A stretch of DNA of 64,000 bases from [Leptolyngbya] sp. PCC 7376 (lineage in GTDB: Bacteria > Cyanobacteriota > Cyanobacteriia > Cyanobacteriales > MRBY01): positions 4,882,036 to 4,946,035 of the forward strand of contig NC_019683.1 of the NCBI RefSeq assembly GCF_000316605.1, written 5' to 3'. Below are positions 2,619-40,132 of the stretch, one piece after another. The notes under the pieces were generated by a model. It had not been told where the DNA came from. It saw only the letters and a list, made by a program, of their open reading frames with translations, and made no database searches. Position 1 is the first letter of the stretch; the number at the start of each line of letters is the position of its first letter. Both the position numbers and the translations under genes were made by a program.

Positions 2619-4805
2619 TCACTTTGGCGCAACAGAAATTAATCCTTGCTTGGGAGTCCATTGAATTACACCATCTTCATCAGTCCAGTAAATGATGGAA
2701 TTTGCCGCCAGAAAATGGTCACGACGAGAACCTATGGCGATCACCCCTTGAGGCTTGAGAGTTTCCCAAAGTTTAAGATCTATATTTTTTGGATTCGTGA
2801 TCAAATAGCCTTTCGATAGTTCGAGCAATGGTGGGTCATCCGCATGGCAATCGCCCAAAATATAAAACGTGTTTTCTGCGACTCTTAATTCAAACAATAA
2901 AGGTTTTTCTTGCAGGATTTGAAATCGTATATTTCCAATCTTTTTTTGCTCAAAAGGTTGAAGATAATGGCTGTCATCCTGATTGATTCCAGTCACATAT
3001 TCGTCTTCAATTTTATATCTATTCTCAAGCACGGAGTCTACAATTAAGTCTTCTGATTTTTGTGGTTTGACTAAAGCATCAATCTCACTTATCCCAGCTT
3101 GATCAAGAAAAGAAAATAAAGAAGATTCAACAGATTTTTCTAGTGAAGACTCAAATACAATTGTTTTACCGTTTACTTGAGCTATTAAAGTTGGTTGATC
3201 GCCAGCTGCAAAAACAACTATTTTTGTTGTTGTATAGTGTTTCACTACCAAGAAACTAACAAATAAAAAACAAAGGCCAAGACCTAATATTTTGCTTTGT
3301 CGCTGTCCCCATTTCGTTAGCCAAATAGAGAGCATTATGCCGTAAATAATCATGAGCTGCGACCAATGTAATGATGCAACTGATAAATTGCTGGCTGGCA
3401 ATGCAACAACTTTTTCCACCAACCACAACATCGCACTAAGAGGAAATCCCACTAAATAGGCGATCGCCCCACCAAGAATAGGAATAAATAAACCAATAGC
3501 TCCACTAAGCATTCCTCCCAAACTCACAATTGCAATTGGCAGTGAAAACAAGATACTAAGAGGGATACTATAAGTTGCGATCACATTAAACTCATAGGCG
3601 AGAAGAGGTAATATCCATAAACTTGCTGCCATCGGAATAGCGATCACGGTAGCTATAGTTGGCGGAACAAAATCTAGCTTTTTTTGAATCGGATCGAGCG
3701 TTGTCAAGAGCCCAAATGTCGCTAAAAAACTAAGCTGAAAACCCAGATCCCAGATCCATAAAGGATTATACAAAAGTAACAATGTCGCAGCGAGCAACAG
3801 CAAACTCAGCGGTTTAACTTGCCGATCTAAAACAAGTGCAGTAAGTCCGGCTCCTCCCATCAAAGCAGCTCTCAATATAGATGGCTGAAAACCAGTCAAC
3901 AAAACATAAAAAGAAAGAATAGTGACACCAGCATAAAATTGCATTTTCACTGTTTTTTTTCTCGTCAACCATTGCGTAAATCCAAGCAACAGAGAGACAT
4001 GAAAGCCCGAAGCCGCAACTGTATAAGCCAGCCCGGCTTTCACCCATAAGTGATAGAGAGATTCAGGAAGATCGACAACTTTCTGACCTAGAACCATTGC
4101 ACTTAATAAAGTTGCTTTATCTGGATCTAAAAACCTTTGGTGAATATTAATAATTTTCTCTCTAACTCTAGAGATTCCAAAACTTGATGATTGAGAAGAT
4201 AGAATTTTCCAGCTTTTAAATCCAAAGAAAGCATTATTTTTTTGAAGGTATTTTGCAAAATCAAATGACCAAGGATCTTTTGGAGATTTTGGTTGATATA
4301 GACGACCCTGCAATGTGGCATTATCACCAGCCTTTATTTCCTGTTCTATCTCATCAAGAGTTATGTAGAGTTTCTCTTGGATAGGAAATTGCTCGAATTT
4401 TGTTGTCAGTATTTCTGTAGTAAACCAAAAAGTTTGTTTTCCAGTACTTTTTGTACGAGGTTGACTTGCGATTTTACCGGAGATTTCGATTGGATATTTT
4501 AATAAAGTTGCTTCTTCTTGAGTCAGTTGAAAGAGTGGGCTTCTTGCTAGATTCGGTGTTCGGAATTGAAAGTAACTGACTGCCAACAATGCAATCAAAC
4601 CAGAGTTCAATACAAGTTGAGCTCTCATTTGCCAAAAATGTCGTGGCAGAATCCAGATCAATAACCCAGTTAGAGCGGTGATCGCCCCTAAGACAGTGAC
4701 CCATTGTAAAACTGTAGGATTAGCATTAATCCCTCCCCACAGACAAGTCAAAAATAAACCGAGCACATAGCCAAAACAAAGAATTGCACCATGATTAATA
4801 TTCAT
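2619..4805 (-). CDS. comEC: ComEC/Rec2-type DNA uptake channel, C-terminal nuclease-like domain degenerate
   Basis: Inner-membrane channel family that moves single-stranded DNA into the cytoplasm during natural transformation. The 728 residues run as two N-terminal membrane segments, a periplasmic OB-like region (about 90-205, DUF4131 type), and then the polytopic Competence domain (about 225-510) with the typical VAASGFHVSLLLGF and GFQPSILRAALMGG stretches. The C-terminal 200 residues align by eye with the metallo-beta-lactamase domain of ComEC (VVFAAGDQPTLIAQVNGKTIV, like DVGQGDATLI...NGKTILID). Where the HxHxDH metal motif should follow, the sequence reads LVKPQKSED. The gene is monocistronic on the minus strand upstream of gyrA. 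Family assignment is firm; a working nuclease activity is doubtful. Confidence 0.85.
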   Translation of the reverse strand: MNINHGAILCFGYVLGLFLTCLWGGINANPTVLQWVTVLGAITALTGLLIWILPRHFWQMRAQLVLNSGLIALLAVSYFQFRTPNLARSPLFQLTQEEATLLKYPIEISGKIASQPRTKSTGKQTFWFTTEILTTKFEQFPIQEKLYITLDEIEQEIKAGDNATLQGRLYQPKSPKDPWSFDFAKYLQKNNAFFGFKSWKILSSQSSSFGISRVREKIINIHQRFLDPDKATLLSAMVLGQKVVDLPESLYHLWVKAGLAYTVAASGFHVSLLLGFTQWLTRKKTVKMQFYAGVTILSFYVLLTGFQPSILRAALMGGAGLTALVLDRQVKPLSLLLLAATLLLLYNPLWIWDLGFQLSFLATFGLLTTLDPIQKKLDFVPPTIATVIAIPMAASLWILPLLAYEFNVIATYSIPLSILFSLPIAIVSLGGMLSGAIGLFIPILGGAIAYLVGFPLSAMLWLVEKVVALPASNLSVASLHWSQLMIIYGIMLSIWLTKWGQRQSKILGLGLCFLFVSFLVVKHYTTTKIVVFAAGDQPTLIAQVNGKTIVFESSLEKSVESSLFSFLDQAGISEIDALVKPQKSEDLIVDSVLENRYKIEDEYVTGINQDDSHYLQPFEQKKIGNIRFQILQEKPLLFELRVAENTFYILGDCHADDPPLLELSKGYLITNPKNIDLKLWETLKPQGVIAIGSRRDHFLAANSIIYWTDEDGVIQWTPKQGLISVAPK

Positions 4806-5501
4806 GATTTTTTCGTAGTAGCCAATTCAATAAAATACAATTACAAAATTCAGACAAACTATCTGCATTATTCAGAACAGCGAAGTAAACGAAAATATCG
4901 CTCAAGATCACCGATATTGTCCATGGTGAAACAGCCAAGAATTAGCATTCTAGAGATTTACAACCAAAACTTTAGAGATAGCAGACAAGACACACTATGT
5001 GTATACATGACAAAGTATAAAGCTTTTCCAGTAAATCACACACTAAGAAAAATATTTATACGTAATGGTAAATTACAAAAATTCAATAAGTATCATAGAT
5101 AAAGCCATATAAACAACAAATCTCACAGCATTTCACATCTATATATTCATATTTTCTTAATCTTAATCTTCTGTTTTTCAGCCAAAAGTCGCATTCAAAA
5201 TTATCGGAAACTGAAATACAATCATATATATACAATTAAGTTCTTAAGCTAGTAGAAGTAATATTTCACCAAACTAAAATATCAAGGAAATGAGTTCCAA
5301 TAAAGTCAAGATATTCAGCTCTAAGTATCTCAAATCAATATAAAAAAGAGACTTAAAGCTAGACTTCGAAGAAGTGTTTTTTTGATATTTCTCAGAGTGT
5401 ATATATAGCTTTATCTTTATTCAAAAGAGAAAAGACAATAGCTTAATAAAAAACTCCAGACTCTCTCTCTGAGAGCCATTTAAGCTTGATATTGACCAGA
5501 G
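4806..5501. other. AT-rich intergenic region between divergent comEC and the GGDEF-EAL gene
   Basis: About 700 bases of strongly AT-rich DNA separating divergently transcribed genes. A 103-codon frame beginning near 4791 has a basic, low-complexity translation and no ribosome binding site, so I do not accept it as a gene. Promoters for both neighbours must lie here, but I cannot name one with confidence. Confidence 0.5.
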
Positions 5502-8204
5502 ATGAAAAATTTCACAACCCAGATTACTGAAGAAAAAAATATATCTAGATATCTATCAAGACAGCTTTGGCAGAAAAAAAGTGATACCTTTGCGAATTCA
5601 CAGAACAAAATAATCATCAAAGCTATCAGTAATCTACTTAGTCAAGAAATTGAATTTCGAAATCAAATTATTAATGCCTTACCAGATTTAGTTTGGCTAA
5701 AAGACTCTAATGGTTTTTATCTTGCCTGCAATAAACGCTTTGAGGATTTTTTTGGCACAACGAAACAAGAAATTATTGGGAAGACAGATCGCGATTTTAT
5801 GGAGTCTGAACTAGCCAATTTTTTCAGCAAGCAGGCTCAGAAAGCGATCAAGAAAGGTTCATCAGTCACAAACGAAGAATGGATTACATTTGCAAAAGAC
5901 GAACATCGTAAGCTTTTAAAAACAACAAAACTACCGATATATAACCAAAACAAAAAATTGATTGGTGTCTTAGGCATTGGACACAACATCACAAAGTCTA
6001 GAAAATCCGAAGAAAGTTTAGGACATCGTGAAGAGCGATTTTCGCTCGCGATGCGTGGTGCCAATGACGGTTTATGGGACTGGAATTTAGAGACAAATGA
6101 AACCTACTATTCACCCCGTTGGAAAAGTATGCTGGGGTATGAAGAAGAGGAACTAGAAAATCAATTTAGTACTTGGGAAAAGCTTGTACACCCCGATGAC
6201 AAAAATATTGTCTTAGATAGAGTTCAGGATTATTTAGCAGGTGCCATAGATGCATTCGAAGTGGAAATGCGAATGATTCATAAAGACGGCCATAACGTTT
6301 TTGTCTTGTCTCGTGCCTTTCTGGTGCATCGTGAATCTGATGACAAGGCGACCCGTCTCGTCGGCACCCATGTTGATATTACAGATCGAAAAAAAGCTGA
6401 GGCATTTGATAATAGAAATGCCGAAATTTTAGAAATGATTGCCACAGGTAAGCCAGCATCAGCTATCTATGCTGAAATTGCTTTGCTGTATGAAGAACGT
6501 CACCCAGGCCTCCGATGCTCAATGCTGGAATTAGAGAATGGCAGGTTGTTACACGGGGGGGCACCAAGCTTACCACAAGCATATTGTGATGCAGTCCATG
6601 GTCTCAAAAATGGCCCGAATGTCGGCTCCTGCGGCACTTCAACATATACAGGGAAACGTGTCCTTGTCGAAAATATTGAGACTGATCCTAAATGGGCAAA
6701 AATCAAACATGTAGCCCTTCCCCATGGCATGCGCTGCTGTTGGTCTGAGCCAATCAAAAGCTCTTCGGGGAAAGTACTCGGCGCATTTGGAATGTACTAT
6801 GACTACCCGGCCTTACCGAATGAAGAGGAATCTAATGATCTCACGTCTGCGGCGAGGTTAGCCGGGATTGTGATGGAGCGAGATCATGCCCAAAAACGTA
6901 TTCGGGAGTTAGCTTATACCGATGAATTAACTAAACTTGCTAGTCGTGCCCACTTTTATGAAGATCTTGAGGAATTAATCGAAATTAGCGATCGCCACAA
7001 ACGCCGTTTTGGTCTTCTTTATATCGACTTAGACAATTTCAAAGGGGTTAATGACAGTCTCGGACATGATGCTGGCGATGTACTGCTTCAGAAAATTGCT
7101 AAGCGTTTAGAAAAAATTAGTCGTACAGGTGATTTTGTTGCCCGACTCAGTGGCGATGAATTCTGTATTCTCGTTAAAGATATTGATGACGATTATGCCA
7201 CAGCCCATGTTGCCCAGCGTTGTCTAGAAAGAATCTCCAAACCTGTCGAGTTATCAGGTCGAAAGTTCACCCCTGCATGCAGTATTGGCATTGCCCATTA
7301 TCCCGACGATGGTCAGGATTTATCCACTTTGCTGAAAGCTGCGGATACGTCACTTTATGCCGCTAAAGAACGCGGCAAAAATCAGTATGCCTTCTACGAA
7401 CAAAAATTTACGGATCAGGCAGAATATCGTTTTCGGGTAGAACAGAATTTGAGAGAGGCAGTCGAAACACAACAATTGTCCCTCGTTTATCAACCCAAAA
7501 TTGAGATGAGTACTGGCAAAATTATTGGGGTTGAGGCCTTGTCACGGTGGTATCACCCAAAATTAGGACAAGTGCCACCGAATGAGTTTATTGATACGGC
7601 GGAAAGAATTGGGATGATTAAACCGCTCACAGAGTGGGTTTTAAAAATCGCTTGCAATCAAGCTGTTGCGTGGAAAAGGCAAGGTTTACCGTCATTAAGG
7701 ATGGCTGTAAATATTTCTCCTAGTCATTTTCTCGATAATGATTTTATGCCCTTAATTAGTAGAGTCATCGCGGAGACAGGGATAAATCCCGAGAATCTGG
7801 AATTAGAGGTTACGGAAAGTGTTGTGCAGACTGACCCACAGAATCTTGAGATTTTCCAACAGTTAAAAGAGCTTGGTATTTCACTAGCCATTGACGATTT
7901 TGGGATCGGTTACTCATCTTTTGCCTCTCTCAAACATTTGGCAGTGGATTATTTAAAGATTGATAAATACTTTGTGAATGACATGCTTACTGATCAGAAA
8001 TCAAAACTTCTAGTAGGCTCAATGGTTGAAATGGGACATATTCTAGGTCATGAAATTGTTGCAGAAGGGATTGAGACAGTTGAGCAATATCAAATACTTA
8101 AAAGTTTTGGTTGTGAGGTTGCTCAAGGCTATTTATTCAGTAGAGCTGTCAATGCAGAGACCATTACCAACCTATTAAATAAAAATGTCATACACCCTGA
8201 ATAA
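5502..8204 (+). CDS. PAS-PAS-GAF-GGDEF-EAL cyclic-di-GMP signalling protein
   Basis: 900-residue soluble sensor predicted to make and/or degrade cyclic-di-GMP. Order: PAS about 50-165 (INALPDLVWLKDSNGFYLAC), PAS_3 with PAC about 175-300, GAF about 305-465, GGDEF about 475-635, EAL about 645-895. The GGDEF signature reads SGDEF (S550), a substitution found in active cyclases. An RxxD inhibitory site (RTGD, 541-544) sits exactly five residues upstream, as in product-inhibited cyclases. The EAL domain keeps EAL (678-680), the Asn of NISP, the Glu of EVTES, the DDFGIGYSS loop, the Lys of LKIDK and the Glu of EGIE, so it should be a competent phosphodiesterase. No membrane segments were seen. The GAF domain lacks the Cys-His pair of bilin-binding types. 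Which activity dominates cannot be told from sequence. Confidence 0.93.
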   Translation: MKNFTTQITEEKNISRYLSRQLWQKKSDTFANSQNKIIIKAISNLLSQEIEFRNQIINALPDLVWLKDSNGFYLACNKRFEDFFGTTKQEIIGKTDRDFMESELANFFSKQAQKAIKKGSSVTNEEWITFAKDEHRKLLKTTKLPIYNQNKKLIGVLGIGHNITKSRKSEESLGHREERFSLAMRGANDGLWDWNLETNETYYSPRWKSMLGYEEEELENQFSTWEKLVHPDDKNIVLDRVQDYLAGAIDAFEVEMRMIHKDGHNVFVLSRAFLVHRESDDKATRLVGTHVDITDRKKAEAFDNRNAEILEMIATGKPASAIYAEIALLYEERHPGLRCSMLELENGRLLHGGAPSLPQAYCDAVHGLKNGPNVGSCGTSTYTGKRVLVENIETDPKWAKIKHVALPHGMRCCWSEPIKSSSGKVLGAFGMYYDYPALPNEEESNDLTSAARLAGIVMERDHAQKRIRELAYTDELTKLASRAHFYEDLEELIEISDRHKRRFGLLYIDLDNFKGVNDSLGHDAGDVLLQKIAKRLEKISRTGDFVARLSGDEFCILVKDIDDDYATAHVAQRCLERISKPVELSGRKFTPACSIGIAHYPDDGQDLSTLLKAADTSLYAAKERGKNQYAFYEQKFTDQAEYRFRVEQNLREAVETQQLSLVYQPKIEMSTGKIIGVEALSRWYHPKLGQVPPNEFIDTAERIGMIKPLTEWVLKIACNQAVAWKRQGLPSLRMAVNISPSHFLDNDFMPLISRVIAETGINPENLELEVTESVVQTDPQNLEIFQQLKELGISLAIDDFGIGYSSFASLKHLAVDYLKIDKYFVNDMLTDQKSKLLVGSMVEMGHILGHEIVAEGIETVEQYQILKSFGCEVAQGYLFSRAVNAETITNLLNKNVIHPE

Positions 8205-8350
8205 TCCATAGATTAATATCCATATTTTTCGTTTTTCAAAGCTTCATTTAGAACATTTTTTTCTCATGGCGAGAGGAAAAAATGAGATTGATTAAAGAAA
8301 ATTAGAGGGAAGAGTTTCTGTCAGAAAAAGGGAAAGGCGATCGCCTGCTG

Positions 8351-8356
8351 TATAAT
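8351..8356 (+). promoter_or_regulatory. Candidate -10 element of the B12-uptake locus
   Basis: A perfect TATAAT lies about 10 bases before the first paired base of the cobalamin riboswitch, where a transcript carrying the complete aptamer should begin. No convincing -35 box is visible at the normal spacing; a HIP1 octamer (GGCGATCGCC) occupies part of the spacer. Confidence 0.5.
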
Positions 8357-8361
8357 GATGG

Positions 8362-8495
8362 CCTTATCGGTTTTGTCGAGGAACAGTCGACAAAAGCAAT
8401 GGGGAAAGAATGGTGCAAATCCATCGCTGTCCCGCAACTGTAATGAAGGTTTAGTGATTACTAGCTTCTGAGTCAGGATGCCCGCCGATAGTTAT
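8362..8495 (+). promoter_or_regulatory. Cobalamin (B12) riboswitch aptamer
   Basis: The leader of the TonB-receptor gene carries the signature blocks of the cobalamin riboswitch. These are a closing arm pair TTTTGTCGA / TCGACAAAA (8371-8394), the core GGGGAAAGAATGGTGCAAATCC (8401-8422; first and last ten bases match GGGAAn..GGTGnAAnTCC), the nearly invariant B12 box CCCGCAACTGTAA (8431-8443), and the 3' block GAGTCAGGATGCCCGCC (8470-8486). These regions fold into the four-way-junction aptamer that binds adenosyl- or methylcobalamin and lowers expression of downstream uptake genes. The approximate limits are set by the recognisable blocks. Which corrinoid subclass it binds cannot be decided by eye. 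Confidence 0.93.
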
Positions 8496-8548
8496 ACGTA
8501 CATGATCACTATTTACATCTGCGAGGTACGGATGCTGTATTCCATTCC

Positions 8549-8573
8549 ATTGGCGATCGCCAATCAATTTTTT
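8549..8573 (+). terminator. Candidate riboswitch expression-platform terminator built on a HIP1 palindrome
   Basis: A perfect 16-nt palindrome, ATTGGCGATCGCCAAT (8549-8564), centred on HIP1, is followed after CAA by six T (8568-8573). It can form a 6-bp stem with a GATC loop. Its position, about 55 bases behind the B12 aptamer and over 200 bases before the receptor start, suits transcription termination control. The stem is short and the T run is offset, so control of translation is an alternative. Confidence 0.4.
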
Positions 8574-8796: not shown

Positions 8797-10824
8797 ATGA
8801 AAATCAAATCTTTATCCCTTGCAGCTTTCTTGGTTGCCTTAGGTCATAGCGCGGCGATCGCCCAAACAGAAATCCCGACATTTCAAATAGACGAGGATTT
8901 AGAAAATAACTCTCAAGAAGAAATTCCGGTTACTCCCATCAATCTCAATGAGACTTATGATTTCGAATTTACGATTATCGATGAGATCTTAAATCAAGCA
9001 ATTTATGCACCGTTGCGACAAGAAAGTACTGTCAAAGAATCGACTCGCGCGGCTTATGTAATTAATCGTGAGCAAATTGAAGCCCAAGGATATCGCACGG
9101 TAAATGAAGCTTTGCGTTATTTCCCTGGCGTTTTTATTGATAGTTCGGCAGGTAACCGCCTCGGTGCGTTGAGTAGCCAAATTATTCGCGGTGGTAATAG
9201 TTCGGCTCAAACACTGATTTTGCTCGATGGTCGCCCCATTAATACATTCAATGATGGGCGTTTTGACCTGTCGAGTTTGAGTACATCCAATGTGGAACGA
9301 ATCGAACTGATACCCGGTGGCGGTTCAACTTTATTTGGGTCTAATGCGATCGCCGGTGTGATTAATATTGTGACGCGCGAGCCAGAAGCCAATGCGGGTT
9401 GGGTTGCGGAAGTCGGTGCGGAGATTGGGAACCTGGGCTATAACCGTCAGGAAATTGCAGCCAGCTACAGCGAAAAAAATAGTGCGGTTCGGATTGCGTA
9501 TGATCGCACTGCTGCCGAAAATGATTATGACTACGATAACGGCACTTTTACTGGCACACGGGAAAATGCCGAAGCCGATCTCCAAAATATCAATTTACTT
9601 GCCAGCACAAAGATTGGCGATCGCCACGAACTGAGATTTAACGGCATTTACTCCAGTAAAGATATTGGCGTGCCAGGCAGTATCGATGATGTGTCCCTAT
9701 TCAGTAGCCGCAGCCTCACCGCCAACCAATATTCTGACGATTGGCTGTTGTCCCTAGAGCTGCAATCTCGTTTAGGTAATGCCGATGACTCACAACTGAC
9801 AGCGCGGGTTTTTGCTGACTTTGGCGATCTATTTTTCGTCAATCGCGAATCCTTTATTGACACAGAATTAGACAATAGTTCGGTTGGTGTACAGGTTCAG
9901 CACGATTGGCAATTCACCGAAAATCAAGGGATCACCTACGGCGTTGACTATCGCAGCAGCGACATTATCGCCACAAGTTTTGACGTTGTAGATTACGACG
10001 AAAATCTTTCCCAAGGTGCGCTGTTTGCCCGTTACTCCGCTAGGGTTAGTCCAGAAGTGGATCTCAATCTTGGCATTCGACAGGACTTTAACAGTTTGGC
10101 GGATGGTTCTTTCACCTCTCCCAGTGCTGGGATTAAATGGCAAGCAGGCGATCGCACCGCCCTCCGCGCCAACTATGCTCGAAATTTCCGAGTTCCCACC
10201 GCCCTCGACCTCTATTTCCCCGGTTTCAGCAATCCTGATTTGTCTCCCGAAACCAGCAATAGTTTTGATATCGGTATTGACCAAGAGATTGGCGATCGCG
10301 CCCTATTCCGCCTGACCTATTTCAACAACACTATCGACGACGCAATTAATTTCGTCTTTGATCCAGTAACCTTTGCAGGGCAACCTGAAAATATCGGTAA
10401 AGTCCGCAACCAAGGTCTTGAAGCTGAGCTGAGTTTGCAATTTAACGAAACGCTGCGGGGCTTTGTGAATTACACCATGAATAATTCCAAAATCCTTGAG
10501 GACAATGACGCCAGCGTTATCGATAATGAAGTACGTTTCGCCGGGACAGATTTCTTTAATGTTGGTCTCGCCTACGAAAATCGTCGTGGTGCTTATGTCG
10601 GTCTTTTCCTCAAACATGTTGGCGATCGCGTCACCAATAACACCAATACCGCATCGCTTGATTCCTATACCAATGTAGATATTCGCGCCCGTTATCCCAT
10701 TAACGAAAACGTGAATCTCACAGCCAGTTGGGAGAATATTTTTGACGAAGATTTTGAAGTCTTCGATAATTTTCCCGGTGTTGGAAGCCGCTTCCAAATT
10801 GGTGTCAATGCCAAATTCCGTTAA
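8797..10824 (+). CDS. btuB: TonB-dependent outer-membrane receptor, probably for cobalamin (BtuB-like)
   Basis: 675-residue outer-membrane receptor predicted to import a corrinoid with energy from TonB. It has an N-terminal signal peptide (MKIKSLSLAAFLVALGHSAAIAQ ending, cleavage about residue 22). The plug domain spans about 60-170 with RAAYVINREQIEAQGYRTV and GGNSSAQTLILLDGRPIN. About 500 residues of alternating beta strands follow, and the protein ends in the aromatic/charged RFQIGVNAKFR typical of the last strand recognised by the BAM machinery. Length fits BtuB-sized receptors rather than siderophore receptors with a signalling extension. The substrate is inferred mainly from the cobalamin riboswitch in its leader; receptor sequence alone would not separate B12 from iron chelates. 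Confidence 0.88.
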   Translation: MKIKSLSLAAFLVALGHSAAIAQTEIPTFQIDEDLENNSQEEIPVTPINLNETYDFEFTIIDEILNQAIYAPLRQESTVKESTRAAYVINREQIEAQGYRTVNEALRYFPGVFIDSSAGNRLGALSSQIIRGGNSSAQTLILLDGRPINTFNDGRFDLSSLSTSNVERIELIPGGGSTLFGSNAIAGVINIVTREPEANAGWVAEVGAEIGNLGYNRQEIAASYSEKNSAVRIAYDRTAAENDYDYDNGTFTGTRENAEADLQNINLLASTKIGDRHELRFNGIYSSKDIGVPGSIDDVSLFSSRSLTANQYSDDWLLSLELQSRLGNADDSQLTARVFADFGDLFFVNRESFIDTELDNSSVGVQVQHDWQFTENQGITYGVDYRSSDIIATSFDVVDYDENLSQGALFARYSARVSPEVDLNLGIRQDFNSLADGSFTSPSAGIKWQAGDRTALRANYARNFRVPTALDLYFPGFSNPDLSPETSNSFDIGIDQEIGDRALFRLTYFNNTIDDAINFVFDPVTFAGQPENIGKVRNQGLEAELSLQFNETLRGFVNYTMNNSKILEDNDASVIDNEVRFAGTDFFNVGLAYENRRGAYVGLFLKHVGDRVTNNTNTASLDSYTNVDIRARYPINENVNLTASWENIFDEDFEVFDNFPGVGSRFQIGVNAKFR

Positions 10825-10893: not shown

Positions 10894-11658
10894 ATGGTCA
10901 GAATTGCCCAAATCACAGATACTCACCTCCTCGCCCACAAGGAAGATGACATGCGAGGTGTCCAAACCTGGTATTCTCTCAAAAAAGTTTTAGAGACAGC
11001 GAAAAAGGCTGAGCCTGAACTAATTCTTTTGACGGGAGATCTCGCCCATGATGGGGAATATGAAGCTTATCAACATCTCAAAGAACTGATTGAGAAGACA
11101 GCAATTCCGGCTTATTGGCTACCGGGCAATCATGATAATTACAGTCTTATGCAGTCGGCATTATCCAGCCAATATCTTCGCCCTCAGAAACTTTTTCACC
11201 ACAAAAATTGGTGTTTTATTCTCTTAAACTCTTGCCTAGAAACAGCTCAATATGGTGAAGGTACGTTTGCACAAACAGAACTTGATTGGTTAGCAGAAGA
11301 GCTCGAAGCAAATAGCAATAACCCCACGGCGATCGCCTTTCACCATCACCCAGTCGATACCGGCATTGATTGGCTTGAACAGATGTCGGTTTTAAATTCG
11401 ACTGACTTTCACCAGATTTTGGCGCAGCATCCCCAAGTAAAAGTAGTTTGTTTTGGGCATATCCACCATCAAGTGGATGTTGAAAAACATGGCGTGCAAT
11501 TCTACGGGACACCAGCCACTTGCACCCAAGTCACACCTGCCAAGAAAGAGTTGATCGACGGCAAAATTCAAACTTGGCAACAACCAGGATTTCGATTAAT
11601 TGAGCTGGGCGAAAATGGCAAAGTCACAACTGAGGTGCATCGAATTCAATGGTTTTAA
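10894..11658 (+). CDS. Calcineurin-like metallophosphoesterase (CpdA/Icc family)
   Basis: 254-residue cytoplasmic phosphoesterase with all signature blocks of the dinuclear-metal CpdA-type family: D9-x-H11 (ITDTHL), G48-D49 (LLTGDLAHDG), G78-NHD (79-81), the H150-H-H-P segment, and G188-H189-I-H191. Such enzymes hydrolyse 3',5'-cAMP or other phosphodiesters; sequence alone cannot fix the substrate. The gene sits between the TonB receptor and the binding-protein gene, and its end overlaps the next start by 10 bases, so translation is probably coupled. That places it under the B12 riboswitch. A role in processing a corrinoid or its nucleotide loop is possible but is inference only. Confidence 0.85.
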   Translation: MVRIAQITDTHLLAHKEDDMRGVQTWYSLKKVLETAKKAEPELILLTGDLAHDGEYEAYQHLKELIEKTAIPAYWLPGNHDNYSLMQSALSSQYLRPQKLFHHKNWCFILLNSCLETAQYGEGTFAQTELDWLAEELEANSNNPTAIAFHHHPVDTGIDWLEQMSVLNSTDFHQILAQHPQVKVVCFGHIHHQVDVEKHGVQFYGTPATCTQVTPAKKELIDGKIQTWQQPGFRLIELGENGKVTTEVHRIQWF

Positions 11659-12890
11659 AACTATGGCGATCGCCTCAAAGATCATCCCAAGTCACTAATT
11701 ATTTTCGACCGACTAAAACGATTTCATTTGCCCTTAGTTTTGGATTCTTTCTAACAGCTTGCCAATCTACTGTTACAACACCAGAAATTGCATCAAATAA
11801 TGATTGTGTTGAGCAGTTTGACAAAAATACAGACTATTTCCCTGACAAAGTCGATCCTCAATTTGCCCAAGGATTTGAAGTTGAATACCACACAAATTAT
11901 AAAGTTGTCACTGTCAAACAACCTTGGGAAGAAGCAGCAGAAGATTTAAATTATATTTTTGTTCAATGTGGCACACCTGCACCAACAGACTATCCGAATG
12001 CGACAATCGTTGAAATCCCAACCCAACGGGTTTTGGCGATGTCCACGACTTATCTGCCCCACATTGAAAAGTTAGACCAATTAGAGTCTTTAGTGGGCGT
12101 TACGGATCGCCGTCTTATTTATAGTGACATTATCCGAAAAAAAATTGAAGAAGGCGTTATTCAGGAAGTTGGCGATTTACAATCTGATGCCGAAAAAATC
12201 CTCAATTTACAAACCGATGTCATTTTAAGTTATCGCCTCGATAATACTGAAAGCAGTGGGTTTAAAACTCTAGAAGCCCTAAATCAACCGATTGTTTTAG
12301 ATGCTGCCCATCTCGAGGCAACGCCTTTAGGTCGAGCTGAATGGCTAAAATTTACAGCTTTACTTTTTAATGGAGAGGCCAAAGCTAACGCAGAGTTTAC
12401 GGCGATCGCCCAACGTTACCAAGACCTAATTAAACAAACTCAAACCCTCGCCAATTCACCAACGATTTTGAGTGGTTCCCCTTTTCAGGGGGTTTGGTAT
12501 ATGCCCGCGGGGAAAAGTTACGTGGCACAATTTTTCCGGGATGCAAATATTAATTATCCTTGGTCAGAAACAGATTCCCGTTTAAGTTTGCCGTTAGATT
12601 TAGAGGCTGTTTTAGATCAAGCAAAAGATGCAGATATTTGGGTCAATGTAAATCCGGCTTGGCAGTCTGCAAAAGATGTCTTAGCAGAAGATAAACGCTA
12701 TGGACTATTCGCTGCCTTTGAGACAAAACAAGTCTATGCAGCCAACGCCCGTGTTGCTCCTGAAGGTGGCAATGATTTCTGGGAAAGTGGCGTTACAAAT
12801 CCCGATATTGTCCTTGCTGATTTAATTAAAATTGCCTATCCAGAACAATTGCCAGAACACGAACTCTATTATTATCAGCAGCTAAATTAG
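11649..12890 (+). CDS. btuF: ABC transporter substrate-binding lipoprotein, probable cobalamin binder (BtuF-like)
   Basis: 413-residue solute-binding protein of the Peripla_BP_2 (FecB/BtuF) type, predicted to deliver the ligand to the permease encoded next. A hydrophobic stretch (about 25-37) ends in the lipobox L35-T-A-C38, so it should be a lipoprotein; about 20 extra basic residues precede the signal if the overlapping ATG is used. A 60-residue N-terminal segment precedes the first lobe, which starts near IPTQRVLAMSTTYLPHI. The second lobe covers about 260-410. The long N-terminal segment is unlike compact E. coli BtuF (about 266 residues). Assignment to B12 rests on operon position behind the riboswitch and on the FecCD partner; an iron-chelate ligand remains possible. 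Confidence 0.8.
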   Translation: MVLKLWRSPQRSSQVTNYFRPTKTISFALSFGFFLTACQSTVTTPEIASNNDCVEQFDKNTDYFPDKVDPQFAQGFEVEYHTNYKVVTVKQPWEEAAEDLNYIFVQCGTPAPTDYPNATIVEIPTQRVLAMSTTYLPHIEKLDQLESLVGVTDRRLIYSDIIRKKIEEGVIQEVGDLQSDAEKILNLQTDVILSYRLDNTESSGFKTLEALNQPIVLDAAHLEATPLGRAEWLKFTALLFNGEAKANAEFTAIAQRYQDLIKQTQTLANSPTILSGSPFQGVWYMPAGKSYVAQFFRDANINYPWSETDSRLSLPLDLEAVLDQAKDADIWVNVNPAWQSAKDVLAEDKRYGLFAAFETKQVYAANARVAPEGGNDFWESGVTNPDIVLADLIKIAYPEQLPEHELYYYQQLN

Positions 12891-30509: not shown

Positions 30510-30905
30510 TTAATTATTGCCACTAGAGTAATTTTGGAGGAATTTGAGCACAATACTCACTTGGGTCCGAATCTCAGTAGTGCAAGCATTAATTTGTCCA
30601 AGATCCTCTACACGGGCTGCATCTTCAACGGCACTACATAAATCTGGAATTTTCTTAACACTAACTGTTGCAGTCGAACCTTTCAGGCGATGGGCTTCAT
30701 ATAAAATTTTTGCCATATCACTATCGGCGATCGCGGCTTCCAACTTGGCAAAATATTTCGGTAAAATTTGCATCAGCTCCTCAAATGCAAACTGAAACAT
30801 AGACGAATCATCGCCATAAAGCTCATAAAGACCCTCAAAGTCAATGGGAGAATCCAGAGAATTTAAGGTGAATTGGTCTGGGGATTTAGACTCAGGGACA
30901 ATCAT
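30510..30905 (-). CDS. Stand-alone Hpt (histidine phosphotransfer) protein
   Basis: 131 residues: a four-helix Hpt domain with the phosphoacceptor histidine H72 in EAHRLKGSTATV, after a Ser/Asp-rich N-terminus. It should relay phosphate between a hybrid kinase and a response regulator, as in other phosphorelays. No receiver-domain gene is adjacent. A second Hpt protein lies at 57272. The gene is convergent to trmJ with 27 bases between the stops. Confidence 0.9.
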   Translation of the reverse strand: MIVPESKSPDQFTLNSLDSPIDFEGLYELYGDDSSMFQFAFEELMQILPKYFAKLEAAIADSDMAKILYEAHRLKGSTATVSVKKIPDLCSAVEDAARVEDLGQINACTTEIRTQVSIVLKFLQNYSSGNN

Positions 30906-35566: not shown

Positions 35567-35743
35567 TTATGGGAATATTTTCTGGGGAAGTTGGGCGATC
35601 ACCAACACTTTTTTACTGAAAATTATTTCGAGAAAATAAGTCTTCACAATTGTGAACCAGACCAGAAAGCTTATTTGCTGATTCTGGATAAAGCTGGTTA
35701 GGATACGTAATTAGAGATCGAGCCTTTTCAGAGATCGTTGGAC

Positions 35744-38323
35744 ATGTCGCCAAATCCTAAAATTAATGCTTTGCAACAGGCCGCACACCAGCTTGCAGTC
35801 TGTACCGATCAGCTTTTCCAGCAGATTGAGCAAGAGCAAGTCTTGGATGGCATTATCGAGCGTATTCGTTCGTGTCTTGAGTTAGATGATGTTTTTCATG
35901 AAACATCAACCTCAATCCGGCAATTACTAAGTGCAGATAGGGTTGGAGTCTTTCGCTTCACTCCCGGCAGTGGCTGGGACGAAGGAGAGTTTGTTGCTGA
36001 GAACGTCAGAAAAGAATTTCCATCAGCAATGGCAGCGAAAGTTTATGACCATTGTTTCGGTTCACAATACGCTGTCCACTACACAGAAGGACGTATACAA
36101 TCCGTTGCAGATATTTATGATGCAAATTTGAGTGATTGTCATATTCAAATCCTTGAGCAGTTTCAAGTGCGGGCAAACTTAATTGTGCCTGTCTTGAAAG
36201 GAAAAGAATTATGGGGATTATTGTGTATTCATCAATGCTCCCATCCTCGACGATGGCAGCTAGCAGAAATTGGGTTTGTCCAGAAAATTGCAATCCATTT
36301 TGCCATTGCCCTACAACAGGCAGAAAACCGCGAACAAATTAAGCTCCAGGCAGCTCAACTCATTCAGGCAAAGGCTCAGCAAGAAGCTTTAACTCGCCAG
36401 AAAGCCCTCGTTAAAATCGTCAGCAATATCAGACAATCTTTAGATTTTGCCGATATTTGTAACACGACAACAGCAGAAGTACGTCATTTACTAGAGGCAG
36501 ATCGTGTCATTATCTATCGCTTTAATCCTGATTGGAGTGGCAATTTTCTATTCGAGTCAGTTGCCGCGGAATGGAAACCTTTAGTTGGGGTTTCTCCTTC
36601 CATTGAAGATACTCACCTAATGGAAACGCAAGGTGGTCGCTATGCTGCCGGGGAGACCTTTGCCATCCCGAATATCTATGAAGCAGGGCATTCTGACTGT
36701 CATGTCGAATTGTTAGAAGAGTTTCAAGCCAAAGCTTATGCGATCGCCCCAATTTTCCGAGATGACAATCTGTGGGGTTTACTCGCGACATTCCAAAACT
36801 CTAGCCCACGCCACTGGCAAACTGATGAAGTAGAGCTCCTTGCCCAAGTCGGAGAACAACTCGGTATTGCTCTCCAACAAGCGAGTAAACAAACAAAAGC
36901 AATCAACCGACAAAAAATCCTAGTCAAACTCGTTAGTAAGATCCGCCAATCCCTTGAATTAGAAGAAATTTGCCAAACAGCAACGACAGAAATACGTCAA
37001 CTGCTAAATGCGGATCGTGTCACTATTTACCGTTTTAATCCCGATTGGAGTGGCAACTTTTTATTTGAATCAGTCACATCAGAATGGCAACCCTTGGTTG
37101 GCGTTTCCCCTGTCATTGAAGATACCCACTTGATGGATACTCAGGGAGGCCGCTACGCAGCAGGGGAAACATTTGCCATCCCAGATATCTATGACGCGGG
37201 ACATTCCGATTGTCACATCGAACTATTAGAACAGTTTCAAGCTAAAGCCTATGCGATCGCCCCTATTTTTCAGGATGATCATCTGTGGGGTTTGCTCGCG
37301 ACATTCCAAAACTCTGGACCACGTCATTGGCAAACTGACGAAGTAGAATTACTGGCTCAAGTTGGCGAACAACTCGGCATCGCCCTACAACAAACAGAAT
37401 TTGTCCGACAACTCCAATCGCAATCAACAGAATTAAAAGATCTATTCGAAGCTTTACAACAGTCTCAATTACAGCTCATTCAGAATGAGAAAATGGCCAG
37501 TTTAGGGCAATTAGTAGCTGGCGTTGCCCATGAGATCAACAATCCCATCAATTTTATTCACGGCAACCTGCCCCATATCAACGATTACGTTAAAGATCTT
37601 TTAATCCTAGCTTGCGAATATCAGAAAACCAGCCCTAACTCAGCCGAAGACATTCAAAAGCTTCAAGAGCGCACCGAAGAACTCGATCTCGACTTTATCT
37701 TGGAAGATCTCCCCAAAGTCCTATCTTCAATGCAAATGGGGACAGATCGGATTCGACAAATTGTTCTATCTCTCCGGAATTTCTCTCGTTTAGATGAAGC
37801 TGAATTTAAAGCGGTTAATATTCACGAAGGGCTCGATAGTACGTTACTGATTTTAGGTAATCGATTGAAATTCTGTGATACAAATACCAGCATTGACATC
37901 ATCAAGAAATATAGTGATATTCCACTAGTAGAGTGTTTTCCAGCTCAACTCAATCAGGTGTTTATGAACCTTTTGTCAAACTCAATTGATGCTATCGAAG
38001 AAGTCTTAAGAAAGAAAGCAAAAAGCACATCAAAAAAAACAAGGAATTGGAAGCCAAAAATCTGGATCAAGACCCAACTAGATGGAATAGATCATATACA
38101 GATTTCCATTCGAGATAATGGTATCGGTATACCAGAGACTGACGAGAATAAACTTTTCGACCATTTCTTCACAACCAAATCGATTGGCAAAGGTACGGGT
38201 TTAGGTTTGTCTATTTCCCATGAAATCATCAGTCAAAAACATGGTGGGCAATTAAATTTCAAATCCATCAAAAAAGGAGGAGCTGAATTCATCATCAGAT
38301 TGCCTATTAAGTTTCAAGGTTAG
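35744..38323 (+). CDS. Triple-GAF histidine kinase with a predicted DXCF cyanobacteriochrome domain
   Basis: 859-residue sensor kinase. GAF1 (about 48-195) carries DHCF with Cys104 and SDCH with Cys132, 28 residues apart, the DXCF-to-canonical spacing of TePixJ-type cyanobacteriochromes, plus the following FQVRANLIVPVLK and LWGLLCIHQCSHPRRW. GAF2 (about 219-388) and GAF3 (about 390-560) are near-identical repeats with a 171-residue period. They keep the Cys-His (Cys319, Cys490), but the DXCF position reads DTHL. A coiled coil leads to the HisKA box VAHEINNP (His596), then N box MNLLSNSIDAIEE, DNGIGIP, and GKGTGLGLS of an intact HATPase. No receiver or output domain. ATG at 35744 was preferred over TTG at 35738. 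Bilin binding is a prediction. Confidence 0.9.
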   Translation: MSPNPKINALQQAAHQLAVCTDQLFQQIEQEQVLDGIIERIRSCLELDDVFHETSTSIRQLLSADRVGVFRFTPGSGWDEGEFVAENVRKEFPSAMAAKVYDHCFGSQYAVHYTEGRIQSVADIYDANLSDCHIQILEQFQVRANLIVPVLKGKELWGLLCIHQCSHPRRWQLAEIGFVQKIAIHFAIALQQAENREQIKLQAAQLIQAKAQQEALTRQKALVKIVSNIRQSLDFADICNTTTAEVRHLLEADRVIIYRFNPDWSGNFLFESVAAEWKPLVGVSPSIEDTHLMETQGGRYAAGETFAIPNIYEAGHSDCHVELLEEFQAKAYAIAPIFRDDNLWGLLATFQNSSPRHWQTDEVELLAQVGEQLGIALQQASKQTKAINRQKILVKLVSKIRQSLELEEICQTATTEIRQLLNADRVTIYRFNPDWSGNFLFESVTSEWQPLVGVSPVIEDTHLMDTQGGRYAAGETFAIPDIYDAGHSDCHIELLEQFQAKAYAIAPIFQDDHLWGLLATFQNSGPRHWQTDEVELLAQVGEQLGIALQQTEFVRQLQSQSTELKDLFEALQQSQLQLIQNEKMASLGQLVAGVAHEINNPINFIHGNLPHINDYVKDLLILACEYQKTSPNSAEDIQKLQERTEELDLDFILEDLPKVLSSMQMGTDRIRQIVLSLRNFSRLDEAEFKAVNIHEGLDSTLLILGNRLKFCDTNTSIDIIKKYSDIPLVECFPAQLNQVFMNLLSNSIDAIEEVLRKKAKSTSKKTRNWKPKIWIKTQLDGIDHIQISIRDNGIGIPETDENKLFDHFFTTKSIGKGTGLGLSISHEIISQKHGGQLNFKSIKKGGAEFIIRLPIKFQG

Positions 38324-38500: not shown

Positions 38501-40132
38501 ATGACCAGCTTTGCCAACCAAGCTATATCACAGCACTTAAATGATTACATCATTGATGATGGCCTTTCGATTTGTAACTTAGAAACAGGCCAGATTATCA
38601 ATGTTGATCCGATTCAATGCAAAATGACAGGATATTCCGAAGCGGAATTGACCAGCCAGCAATTGTTCGAGTTCATTCATCCTGATTCTCTGAACTTATT
38701 TGATAGTTTTCTCGACACTCTCCGAGCCGATAAAGAATTTTATTGTCAGGCGATCGCCCAACGAAAGGATGGCAGCTGTTTTGATATCGAAGTTAGAGCA
38801 GTGGCCTGCCTCTATGACGGCAAACCCCATGGCCTAATCACAATGCAAGATATTAGCCAACGCAAAGCAGCAGAAGTCGCTCTGGCAGAAAGTGAAGCCT
38901 ACCATCGTAACTTATTAGAACAATCCTCCATGGGTTTACTGCTCTGTCGGATGAATGGGGAATTTGTCTATGCCAATCAAGCTTTTGCGGGGATTCTCGG
39001 TCGCGAAAATGAGGATTTATCTGTCCTAAGCTATTGGGAAATCACTCCCGAGAAATATGCCCCTCAAGAACAAATACAGCTCCAAAGCCTATCTAAAACC
39101 GGGCGCTATGGCCCCTATGAAAAAGAATATATCCACAAAAATGGCTCCCTTATCCCGGTCAGGCTATCGGGAAGAATTGTTGAGCGACATGGCGAAAAAT
39201 TTATTTGGTCAAGCGTCGAAAATATCAGCGATCGCAAAGCAGCAGAAGCGATCATTTTGCAAAAATCACAGGAGTTGGAAAAAGCCTTAACGCAACTGCA
39301 AACGACTCAATTACAAATGGTGCAACGTGAAAAAATGGCCACCCTAGGGAATCTAGTAGCAGGAGTTGGTCATGAAATAAACAATCCGATGGGCTTCCTC
39401 AACGGCAGTATTAATAATGCCAAGGATTATATACAAGAGCTGTTTGAATATTTGGCGATTTATCACTCACAACATCCCCCGAATAATAAAGTTCAAGATG
39501 TGGCAGATGATATCGATTTAGAATTTATCCTTGAAGATTTACCGAGACTCTTAGAATCAATGACAACGGCAACAACTCAAATTAAAAGCATTAGTAGAAG
39601 CCTTCGTATTTTCTCGCGCGCTGAAACAAAAGAAAAAGTGAGTATAGATTTGCATGATGGCCTAAACAGTACGTTGCTTATCCTCAAATATCGACTAAAA
39701 GCAACGGAATGCCGTCCAGCGATTGAAGTCAAAAAAGACTATGGTGAGTTACCTGAAATCAAATGCTTTTCTAGCCAGCTCAATCAAGTATTTATGAACA
39801 TCTTGGCTAATGCAATTGATGCTTTAGAAGAAGCTAGTGAAGGTCATAGTTTTGAAGATCTAGAAGATAATCCCCAACACATTACTATTCGTACTTCAGT
39901 GGATAATCAACACATTAAAATCAGTATTGCCGATAATGGTTTAGGGATTCCCAAAAAGGATCAAGCGAGAATTTTCAACAATCTATTTACGACAAAAGCG
40001 ATTGGCAAAGGTACGGGCTTAGGGTTGGCGATCGCCAGACAAATTATCGTTGAAACCCATGAGGGAAGCATCGACGTCATCTCCGATATCGATCAGGGTT
40101 GTGAGTTTTGTATTTACCTGCCCATAACGTAA
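38501..40132 (+). CDS. PAS-PAS sensor histidine kinase
   Basis: 543-residue soluble sensor kinase. Two PAS domains (about 12-130 and 135-255, each with a PAC-type C-terminus) are joined by a short coiled coil to a HisKA box with VGHEINNP (His291). The HATPase has N box MNILANAIDALEEA, DNGLGIP and GKGTGLGLA. The kinase half is clearly related to that of the gene upstream (same HEINNP subgroup, same FILEDLP-type linker), so the pair probably arose by duplication. No cofactor-binding motif is evident in the PAS domains, and no response-regulator gene is adjacent. Confidence 0.9.
   Translation: MTSFANQAISQHLNDYIIDDGLSICNLETGQIINVDPIQCKMTGYSEAELTSQQLFEFIHPDSLNLFDSFLDTLRADKEFYCQAIAQRKDGSCFDIEVRAVACLYDGKPHGLITMQDISQRKAAEVALAESEAYHRNLLEQSSMGLLLCRMNGEFVYANQAFAGILGRENEDLSVLSYWEITPEKYAPQEQIQLQSLSKTGRYGPYEKEYIHKNGSLIPVRLSGRIVERHGEKFIWSSVENISDRKAAEAIILQKSQELEKALTQLQTTQLQMVQREKMATLGNLVAGVGHEINNPMGFLNGSINNAKDYIQELFEYLAIYHSQHPPNNKVQDVADDIDLEFILEDLPRLLESMTTATTQIKSISRSLRIFSRAETKEKVSIDLHDGLNSTLLILKYRLKATECRPAIEVKKDYGELPEIKCFSSQLNQVFMNILANAIDALEEASEGHSFEDLEDNPQHITIRTSVDNQHIKISIADNGLGIPKKDQARIFNNLFTTKAIGKGTGLGLAIARQIIVETHEGSIDVISDIDQGCEFCIYLPIT

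Follow-up and report, generated by a model that had tools for sequence, protein, structure and literature searches.

A window of 64,000 nucleotides from the genome of [Leptolyngbya] sp. PCC 7376 (contig NC_019683.1, positions 4,882,036 to 4,946,035, forward strand; coordinates below count from its first nucleotide) contains a gene for a histidine kinase with three GAF domains which, judged from its sequence, is probably a light sensor of a mostly familiar photoreceptor type. The first domain, GAF1, is a DXCF cyanobacteriochrome domain by sequence motif, tree and predicted fold. The other two, GAF2 and GAF3, are relatives of the XRG lineage by descent, and not typical red/green cyanobacteriochromes. 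Their real peculiarity, overlooked in a preliminary description of this DNA, is an isoleucine in place of the lid tryptophan and a phenylalanine in place of a tyrosine in the pocket.

Architecture of the kinase

The open reading frame runs on the + strand from a TTG at 35738, or an ATG at 35744, to 38323, giving 861 or 859 amino acids. A Pfam search confirmed the gene, with GAF in three stretches (E 1.5e-72), HATPase_c (1.1e-23) and HisKA (2.1e-6); the latter two both score above the Pfam cut-off. The HisKA dimerisation/phosphoacceptor domain occupies 37502–37792 (+) and the HATPase_c catalytic domain 37943–38308 (+). The boxes GVAHEINNP, whose histidine is encoded at 37529–37531, DNGIGI and GKGTGLGL are legible in the sequence, and we assume for them their usual roles in kinases. 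Residues are numbered from the ATG, and on this count the positions given in the preliminary description (Cys104, Cys132, the DTHL motifs, Cys319 and Cys490) are all correct.

GAF1 is a DXCF domain

GAF1 (35846–36328, +) carries Cys104 (36053–36055, +), the second cysteine, in a DHCF motif and the canonical bilin cysteine Cys132 (36137–36139, +) in DCHI, with His133 directly following the latter. The two are 28 residues apart, and counting on the letters of TePixJ bore out the equal spacing that the preliminary description gives for that protein.

For comparison, near-complete GAF domains were collected from the gathered loci, whose labels (L001 and so on) also denote the relatives, together with the corresponding stretches of solved structures. 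The alignment comprises 318 rows, 256 of them with the canonical cysteine. DXCF rows account for 89 of these 256, and all except one of the 89 have a 14-residue loop before the motif, the same length as in GAF1 (88/89). At the place of AnPixJg2 Y352 GAF1 has a histidine, as do 97% of the surveyed DXCF rows, and its residue at the lid site is valine. A quick tree was computed from 112 dereplicated rows after dropping the loop and motif columns, so that the trait could not drive the outcome. GAF1 falls on its DXCF side, in a sub-branch in which the DXCF cysteine is kept in 7 of 8 rows, L005 being the exception. The check proposed earlier, alignment and phylogeny, thus leaves GAF1 within the cyanobacteriochrome clade, and the grouping outside it that was to count against the assignment did not appear. 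A second, more careful tree had GAF1 preassigned to the outgroup and is not an independent test of its placement.

The AlphaFold model of GAF1 has a pLDDT of 94. Its best fold matches are 6ob8 and 6oap, from a dual-sensor histidine kinase (TM 0.88–0.89 for 6ob8), and it superimposes on TePixJ (4fof) with a TM of 0.86, an rmsd of 1.4 and 36% identity in the fold alignment. Motif, tree and fold thus agree with the earlier view of GAF1 as a DXCF photoreceptor domain. With TePixJ and other DXCF domains it shares the DXCF cysteine, a canonical cysteine 28 residues on and the loop of 14, but its identity to 4fof is low, as given above, and it lies in another DXCF sub-branch of the careful tree. The dual-sensor kinase (6oap/6ob8/6oaq), which we take to be PPHK, resembles the present kinase in feeding several bilin domains into one histidine kinase, although its cyanobacteriochrome domain is presumably paired with a different kind of sensor domain. 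That cyanobacteriochrome domain is the nearest to GAF1 in both sequence and fold, yet it reads DQYF and lacks the DXCF cysteine.

GAF2 and GAF3 lie on the XRG side

GAF2 (36398–36886, +) has DTHL at residues 289–292 and Cys319 (36698–36700, +) as its canonical bilin cysteine; in GAF3 (36911–37399, +), its tandem copy, the corresponding elements are DTHL at 460–463 and Cys490 (37211–37213, +). In both, a histidine thus occupies the site of the second cysteine, as had been described. The conclusion drawn from it, that the pair had lost this cysteine from a DXCF-like copy, is contradicted by the trees. The closest solved relatives of GAF2 and GAF3 are NpR6012g4 and AnPixJg2, red/green domains that read WEDTHL at this place, so that DTHL is ordinary XRG sequence and not a damaged DXCF motif. 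In the quick tree a split with support 100 divides the rows into 46 (35 DXCF, 5 that lack its cysteine but have its phenylalanine, and 6 other) and 66 (62 XRG-type and 4 other), the larger part containing GAF2 and GAF3. The careful tree has 76 rows, of which 63 come from the XRG side (66 in the quick tree) and 13 from the DXCF side (46 in the quick tree), with long or odd rows and the loop and motif columns excluded; here the split has support 100/99, again with GAF2 and GAF3 on the XRG side. A tree constrained to group the two domains with the outgroup of 13 DXCF-side rows is worse by 20 log units and is rejected (p-AU 0.025). In addition, both domains have leucine, not phenylalanine, after the histidine, and their Arg301, Phe308, His318 and Tyr334 match the XRG pattern. 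A recent loss of the second cysteine would explain the histidine at the aligned site and has a parallel in GAF1 of L005, which reads DQWF within the GAF1 branch, but given the trees and these residues we regard it as extremely improbable for GAF2 and GAF3.

The model of GAF3 (pLDDT 91) has AnPixJg2 (3w2z) as its top PDB match, with a TM of 0.94 and an rmsd of 1.6. Both domains have the canonical bilin cysteine without the DXCF cysteine, as expected of XRG members; both depart from the WXDXXL motif of that lineage, reading IEDTHL. An assignment to the insert-Cys type was considered and rejected, the loop being 16 residues long and free of cysteine. Hoshino et al. 2024, citing Rockwell & Lagarias 2023, derive the XRG lineage as a whole from DXCF lineages through loss of that cysteine (PMC11284453). 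The phrase "lost the second cysteine" is valid only on this deep timescale. The suggestion that the kinase may read light through several bilin sites of different type has become the best reading, with a DXCF site in GAF1 and XRG-side sites in GAF2 and GAF3.

The pocket without a lid tryptophan

Both domains have isoleucine at the position of AnPixJg2 W289 (Ile287, 36602–36604, and Ile458, 37115–37117, both +), phenylalanine at that of Y352 (Phe350, 36791–36793, and Phe521, 37304–37306, both +) and a pre-motif loop of 16 residues, compared with 18 in AnPixJg2. Among the 14 pocket positions listed, the remaining 12 equal AnPixJg2, including D291, R301, H322, H293, F308, H318 and I336. W289, D291, R301, H322 and Y352 have been described as the five AnPixJg2 residues crucial for cofactor stability, and H293, F308, H318 and I336 as the BV4 positions (PMC8156171). 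Since these four are of the phycocyanobilin (PCB) type in GAF2 and GAF3, a preference for biliverdin would not be expected. The lid and its two helper positions map to W289, T292 and A350 of AnPixJg2 (PMC11284453); the trio reads Ile, Thr, Ala in both copies.

Tyrosine occupies position 352 in 78 of 78 Trp-bearing domains with loops of 18–20 residues, many of which are closely related to one another. In the 50 Trp-less domains with loops of 15–17 residues the same position is Tyr in 37, Phe in 12 and His in one. The 12 Phe352 domains lie in eight genes (the present kinase, L001, L002, L005, L008, L009, L014 and L023); the same-genus relatives L102 and L103 retain Tyr. No tryptophan occurs in the 38 XRG-type domains of the 318-row alignment whose loop is exactly 16 residues long, nor in 10 such domains of a second sample, three of which (L134, L135) are re-readings of first-sample genes. 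The coupling of loop and lid is not strict in reverse: a loop of 18 goes with Trp in 40 domains of the second sample and with other residues, mostly Leu, in 16, and three Trp domains of the 318-row alignment have a loop of 17. Because TePixJ has isoleucine (IEDPCF) and GAF1 valine at the lid site, the isoleucine of GAF2 and GAF3 could be retained from a DXCF ancestor instead of replacing a tryptophan, a choice that the tree does not decide.

Tandem duplication and selection

The exact period of the GAF2–GAF3 repeat is 171 residues, as first read from the sequence: 135 of 172 positions are identical at this offset, and the other 12 offsets tried (165–177) give 6–13 identities. Over the domains, 135 of 163 residues are identical, as are 75% of the bases over 513 positions. 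The Nei-Gojobori method gives a dN of 0.107, a dS of 1.53 and a ratio of 0.07, indicating an old duplication with strong purifying selection on both copies. On the same ratio, the idea of decaying copies was rejected.

Relatives carry one Trp-less copy (L008, L014), two (the present kinase, L001, L002, L005, L102) or three (L103), so that these copies behave like a repeat array. In the careful tree GAF2 is sister to GAF3 (100/96), the pairs in L005 and L103 behave in the same way, and the copies of L001 and L002 pair by position. Two copies in L103 (979–1980, −) are near-identical up to about base 350 of 513 and differ clearly beyond it, with 456 of 513 identical overall; this pattern is likely to mark a gene-conversion tract.

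Proposed photochemistry

We consider it reasonably probable that the protein is a multi-colour light-regulated kinase, with GAF1 responding in a blue/green-like manner and GAF2 and GAF3 binding PCB with an orange dark state. In GAF1, PCB would be bound at Cys132 and isomerised to phycoviolobilin, and with a reversible second bond via Cys104 the dark state would be blue and the photoproduct green or teal. In GAF2 and GAF3, PCB would be held at Cys319 and Cys490. There the A ring, without a Trp lid, would twist and move the dark state from red (~640–650 nm) toward orange (~580–620 nm), with a green photoproduct and, since the helper positions keep Thr and Ala, little or no conversion of PCB to phycoviolobilin. 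The three GAF states may then act jointly through helical linkers on the single HisKA/HATPase unit, and the output would depend on how much blue/green light there is relative to orange. The genome encodes PcyA, the 15,16-dihydrobiliverdin and phycoerythrobilin ferredoxin oxidoreductases of the phycoerythrobilin pathway, and two haem oxygenases.

The orange/green prediction follows from Trp-less mutants and from CxDxxL domains with Thr and Ala helpers, which are blue-shifted in the dark. The dark states of the W496H, W496Y and W496L variants of Slr1393g3 lie 26–30 nm to the blue while the photoproduct maximum is little affected, and in the Leu variant the short-wave population is in the majority (PMC11733413). 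Naturally Trp-less XRG domains of the CxDxxL type bound only PCB when their helpers were Thr and Ala, absorbing at 574 and 604 nm (yellow/orange) in the dark, whereas those with Val and Ile helpers contained phycoviolobilin and were of the green/teal type (PMC11284453).

These latter domains, MCC3606390g2 and WP_007354189g2, are the model for a different reading, in which GAF2 and GAF3 isomerise PCB to phycoviolobilin and act as green/teal switches. Restoring Trp at the lid site inhibited isomerisation most strongly (PMC11284453), and TePixJ, which isomerises its chromophore, likewise has Ile there. The helper letters of GAF2 and GAF3 are, however, of the PCB type, and the two CxDxxL domains that share them bound PCB only, which makes phycoviolobilin in GAF2 and GAF3 quite improbable. 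Somewhat better, though still unlikely, are the chances that the two domains bind PCB and scarcely photoconvert, as fluorescent domains, poor switches or spacers, so that GAF1 alone senses light. Two of the five cofactor-stability residues are indeed replaced in both copies (PMC8156171), but the bilin cysteine, Asp291, Arg301 and His322 are retained and selection has been strong (dN/dS as above). The Trp is moreover described as dispensable for red/green photocycles, and the Slr1393g3 Trp variants give photoproducts (PMC11733413).

Several points weigh against the orange/green and blue/green assignments that we prefer. Our search of the open-licence literature found no spectrum of the kinase or of any member of its immediate group. 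The Tyr-to-Phe exchange lies outside the mutant studies cited and, together with Trp-to-Ile, could give weakly photoactive domains, and the loop, shorter by two residues, may repack the pocket beyond what single mutants predict. A partner response regulator was not identified. For GAF1, the closest solved relatives by sequence, the 6oap cyanobacteriochrome domain and miRFP670nano (the miRFPnano series is derived from NpR3784; PMC10357936), lack the second cysteine, so that its photocycle is not safely TePixJ-like.

A Trp-less branch that often accompanies DXCF domains

In the careful tree a branch sets the Trp-less short-loop domains apart from all other rows (27 rows, 97/81, found in 98% of 200 bootstrap trees); the quick tree gave the group a support of only 80. 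The other XRG groups are insert-Cys-like rows (15 rows, 98/95), Trp rows with a loop of 14 (3 rows, 100/99) and Trp rows with a loop of ~18, which group weakly (18 rows, 90/55). Trp-less and insert rows together form one side with support 77/77, and the test does not reject a tree that unites all Trp-bearing rows (p-AU 0.389). The trees are therefore compatible with more than one branching order of the four groups and with either a single gain or a loss of Trp.

Skipping copies of their own class, 34 of 50 Trp-less short-loop domains directly follow a DXCF domain, and 45 of 50 have one in the same protein; for Trp-bearing domains the counts are 2 and 28 of 78. Most of the loci had been retrieved using the entire protein, a choice that biases these counts toward pairing. 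By source, 18 and 27 of 31 Trp-less domains in the first locus set, and 7 and 8 of 9 in the second, directly follow or share a protein with a DXCF domain. In the set fetched with GAF3 alone the counts are 7 and 8 of 8 for Trp-less domains and 0 and 1 of 40 for Trp-bearing ones; this set comprises 28 loci, excludes L134, contains an L135 gene already in the second set and may overlap in species with the first. Among the 16 Trp-less domains not directly after a DXCF domain, nine come after an insert-type domain, in Nostoc-like kinases with a DXCF domain at the front, and the rest include L005 and L023, whose first GAF is decayed, L009, a gene split by a frame break, L078, L128 and L136.

The first GAF domain of L005 (within 3568–5340) has no second cysteine, and that of L023 (within 6290–8557) is a DXCF-like domain that is degraded or has lost its cysteine. 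Both proteins keep their Trp-less XRG copies, which suggests that such copies can matter independently of the first GAF.

We put forward, as a rather unlikely idea, that DXCF and Trp-less short-loop XRG domains form a conserved two-colour module, that the Trp-less branch is an intermediate between DXCF and red/green domains, and that the Phe352 group is a new spectral class. The intermediate would already have given up the second cysteine but still hold, at the lid site, the aliphatic residue known from DXCF domains (TePixJ has Ile, GAF1 Val), and loop length would run through 14, 16 and 18 residues. The pocket of the new class would lack both the Trp lid and any side chain able to hydrogen-bond at the Y352 position.

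Two other loci of the same genome were noted. L089 (295–2496, −; at ~3.31 Mb) is a hybrid kinase whose XRG-side GAF reads IEDTYL, has a long Cys-bearing insert and is insert-Cys-like; it is the sole further XRG-side domain of this genome in the quick tree. At ~1.92 Mb, a 1470-codon open frame (L091–L100) contains at least six GAF-like domains, three with a cysteine at the canonical site and none with a clean DXCF or DTHL motif.

Origin and surroundings of the gene

In a tree of the kinase module (17 rows; of 19 proteins supplied, L001, L002 and L157 were dropped for want of a single match over 200 residues) the kinase groups with L008, L009, L014 and L023 (99/99), apart from the same-genus L102 and L103 (97/97). 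Five other genomes of the genus were searched at E 1e-80, and three of them gave no match to the GAF kinase. In 18 kb and 17 kb around the same-genus orthologues L131 and L132, only the GAF kinase was matched when 12 proteins of the window served as queries. Lateral gain and differential loss would both be possible origins of the gene.

A tRNA-Phe lies ~200 bases ahead of the gene. The neighbouring PAS-PAS histidine kinase (38501–40132, +), whose kinase module shares 46% identity with the one in the GAF kinase, is a candidate partner at most; in 2 of the 12 loci compared (L001 and L023) a PAS histidine kinase resembling it lies upstream, not downstream, of the gene. A small stand-alone protein about 5 kb from the kinase (30510–30905, −) looks Hpt-like by eye and is a candidate phosphorelay member. 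Elsewhere in the window, a Cobalamin riboswitch (Rfam RF00174, 8351–8503) precedes reading frames for a TonB-dependent receptor-like protein (8797–10824) and a periplasmic binding protein-like one (11649–12890), both so named by eye; the locus looks like ordinary control of B12 uptake.

Discussion

AnPixJg2 (3w2z) and NpR6012g4 (6bhn) share with GAF2 and GAF3 the DTHL and Cys-His motifs and are their best sequence matches, AnPixJg2 also being the best in fold and identical to them at 12 of the 14 pocket positions, and differ in the lid residue, in position 352 and in loop length. The CxDxxL domains MBD0393953g, WP_106260381g2 and MCC3606390g2 are likewise natural domains of the XRG lineage without the lid Trp, and the first two, orange or yellow in the dark, have the same Thr and Ala helpers; they have Cys where GAF2 and GAF3 have Ile, a comparison made on the published description (PMC11284453). 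Given that Trp-less XRG domains are already known from that work, the kinase is a variant and not a new kind. Insert-Cys cyanobacteriochromes (PMC5240096) are a further Trp-less branch on the XRG side. Unlike GAF2 and GAF3, the long-loop domains of our collection have loops of 32–46 residues with a cysteine (55/55), and we infer that they are of the insert-Cys type. In the open-licence literature, subscription papers being mostly outside its scope, we found no description of an Ile-lid, short-loop branch or of a natural Phe352 XRG domain. NpR5113 of Nostoc punctiforme may share the DXCF, Trp-less XRG, DXCF layout of L063. If so, the Trp-less branch already has one characterised photoactive member, as NpR5113g2 is listed among domains with red/green cycles (PMC5240096).

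Light sensing by the kinase would itself be expected and unsurprising. Cyanobacteriochromes are compact colour switches for optogenetics, and the lid Trp is regarded as one of the main residues that set the colour in the red/green lineage. A natural branch that has been selected without it, with two near-copies and a Tyr-to-Phe exchange in one kinase, would offer a test set for the minimal pocket and the colour that results, and may inform the origin of the red/green lineage from two-cysteine ancestors.

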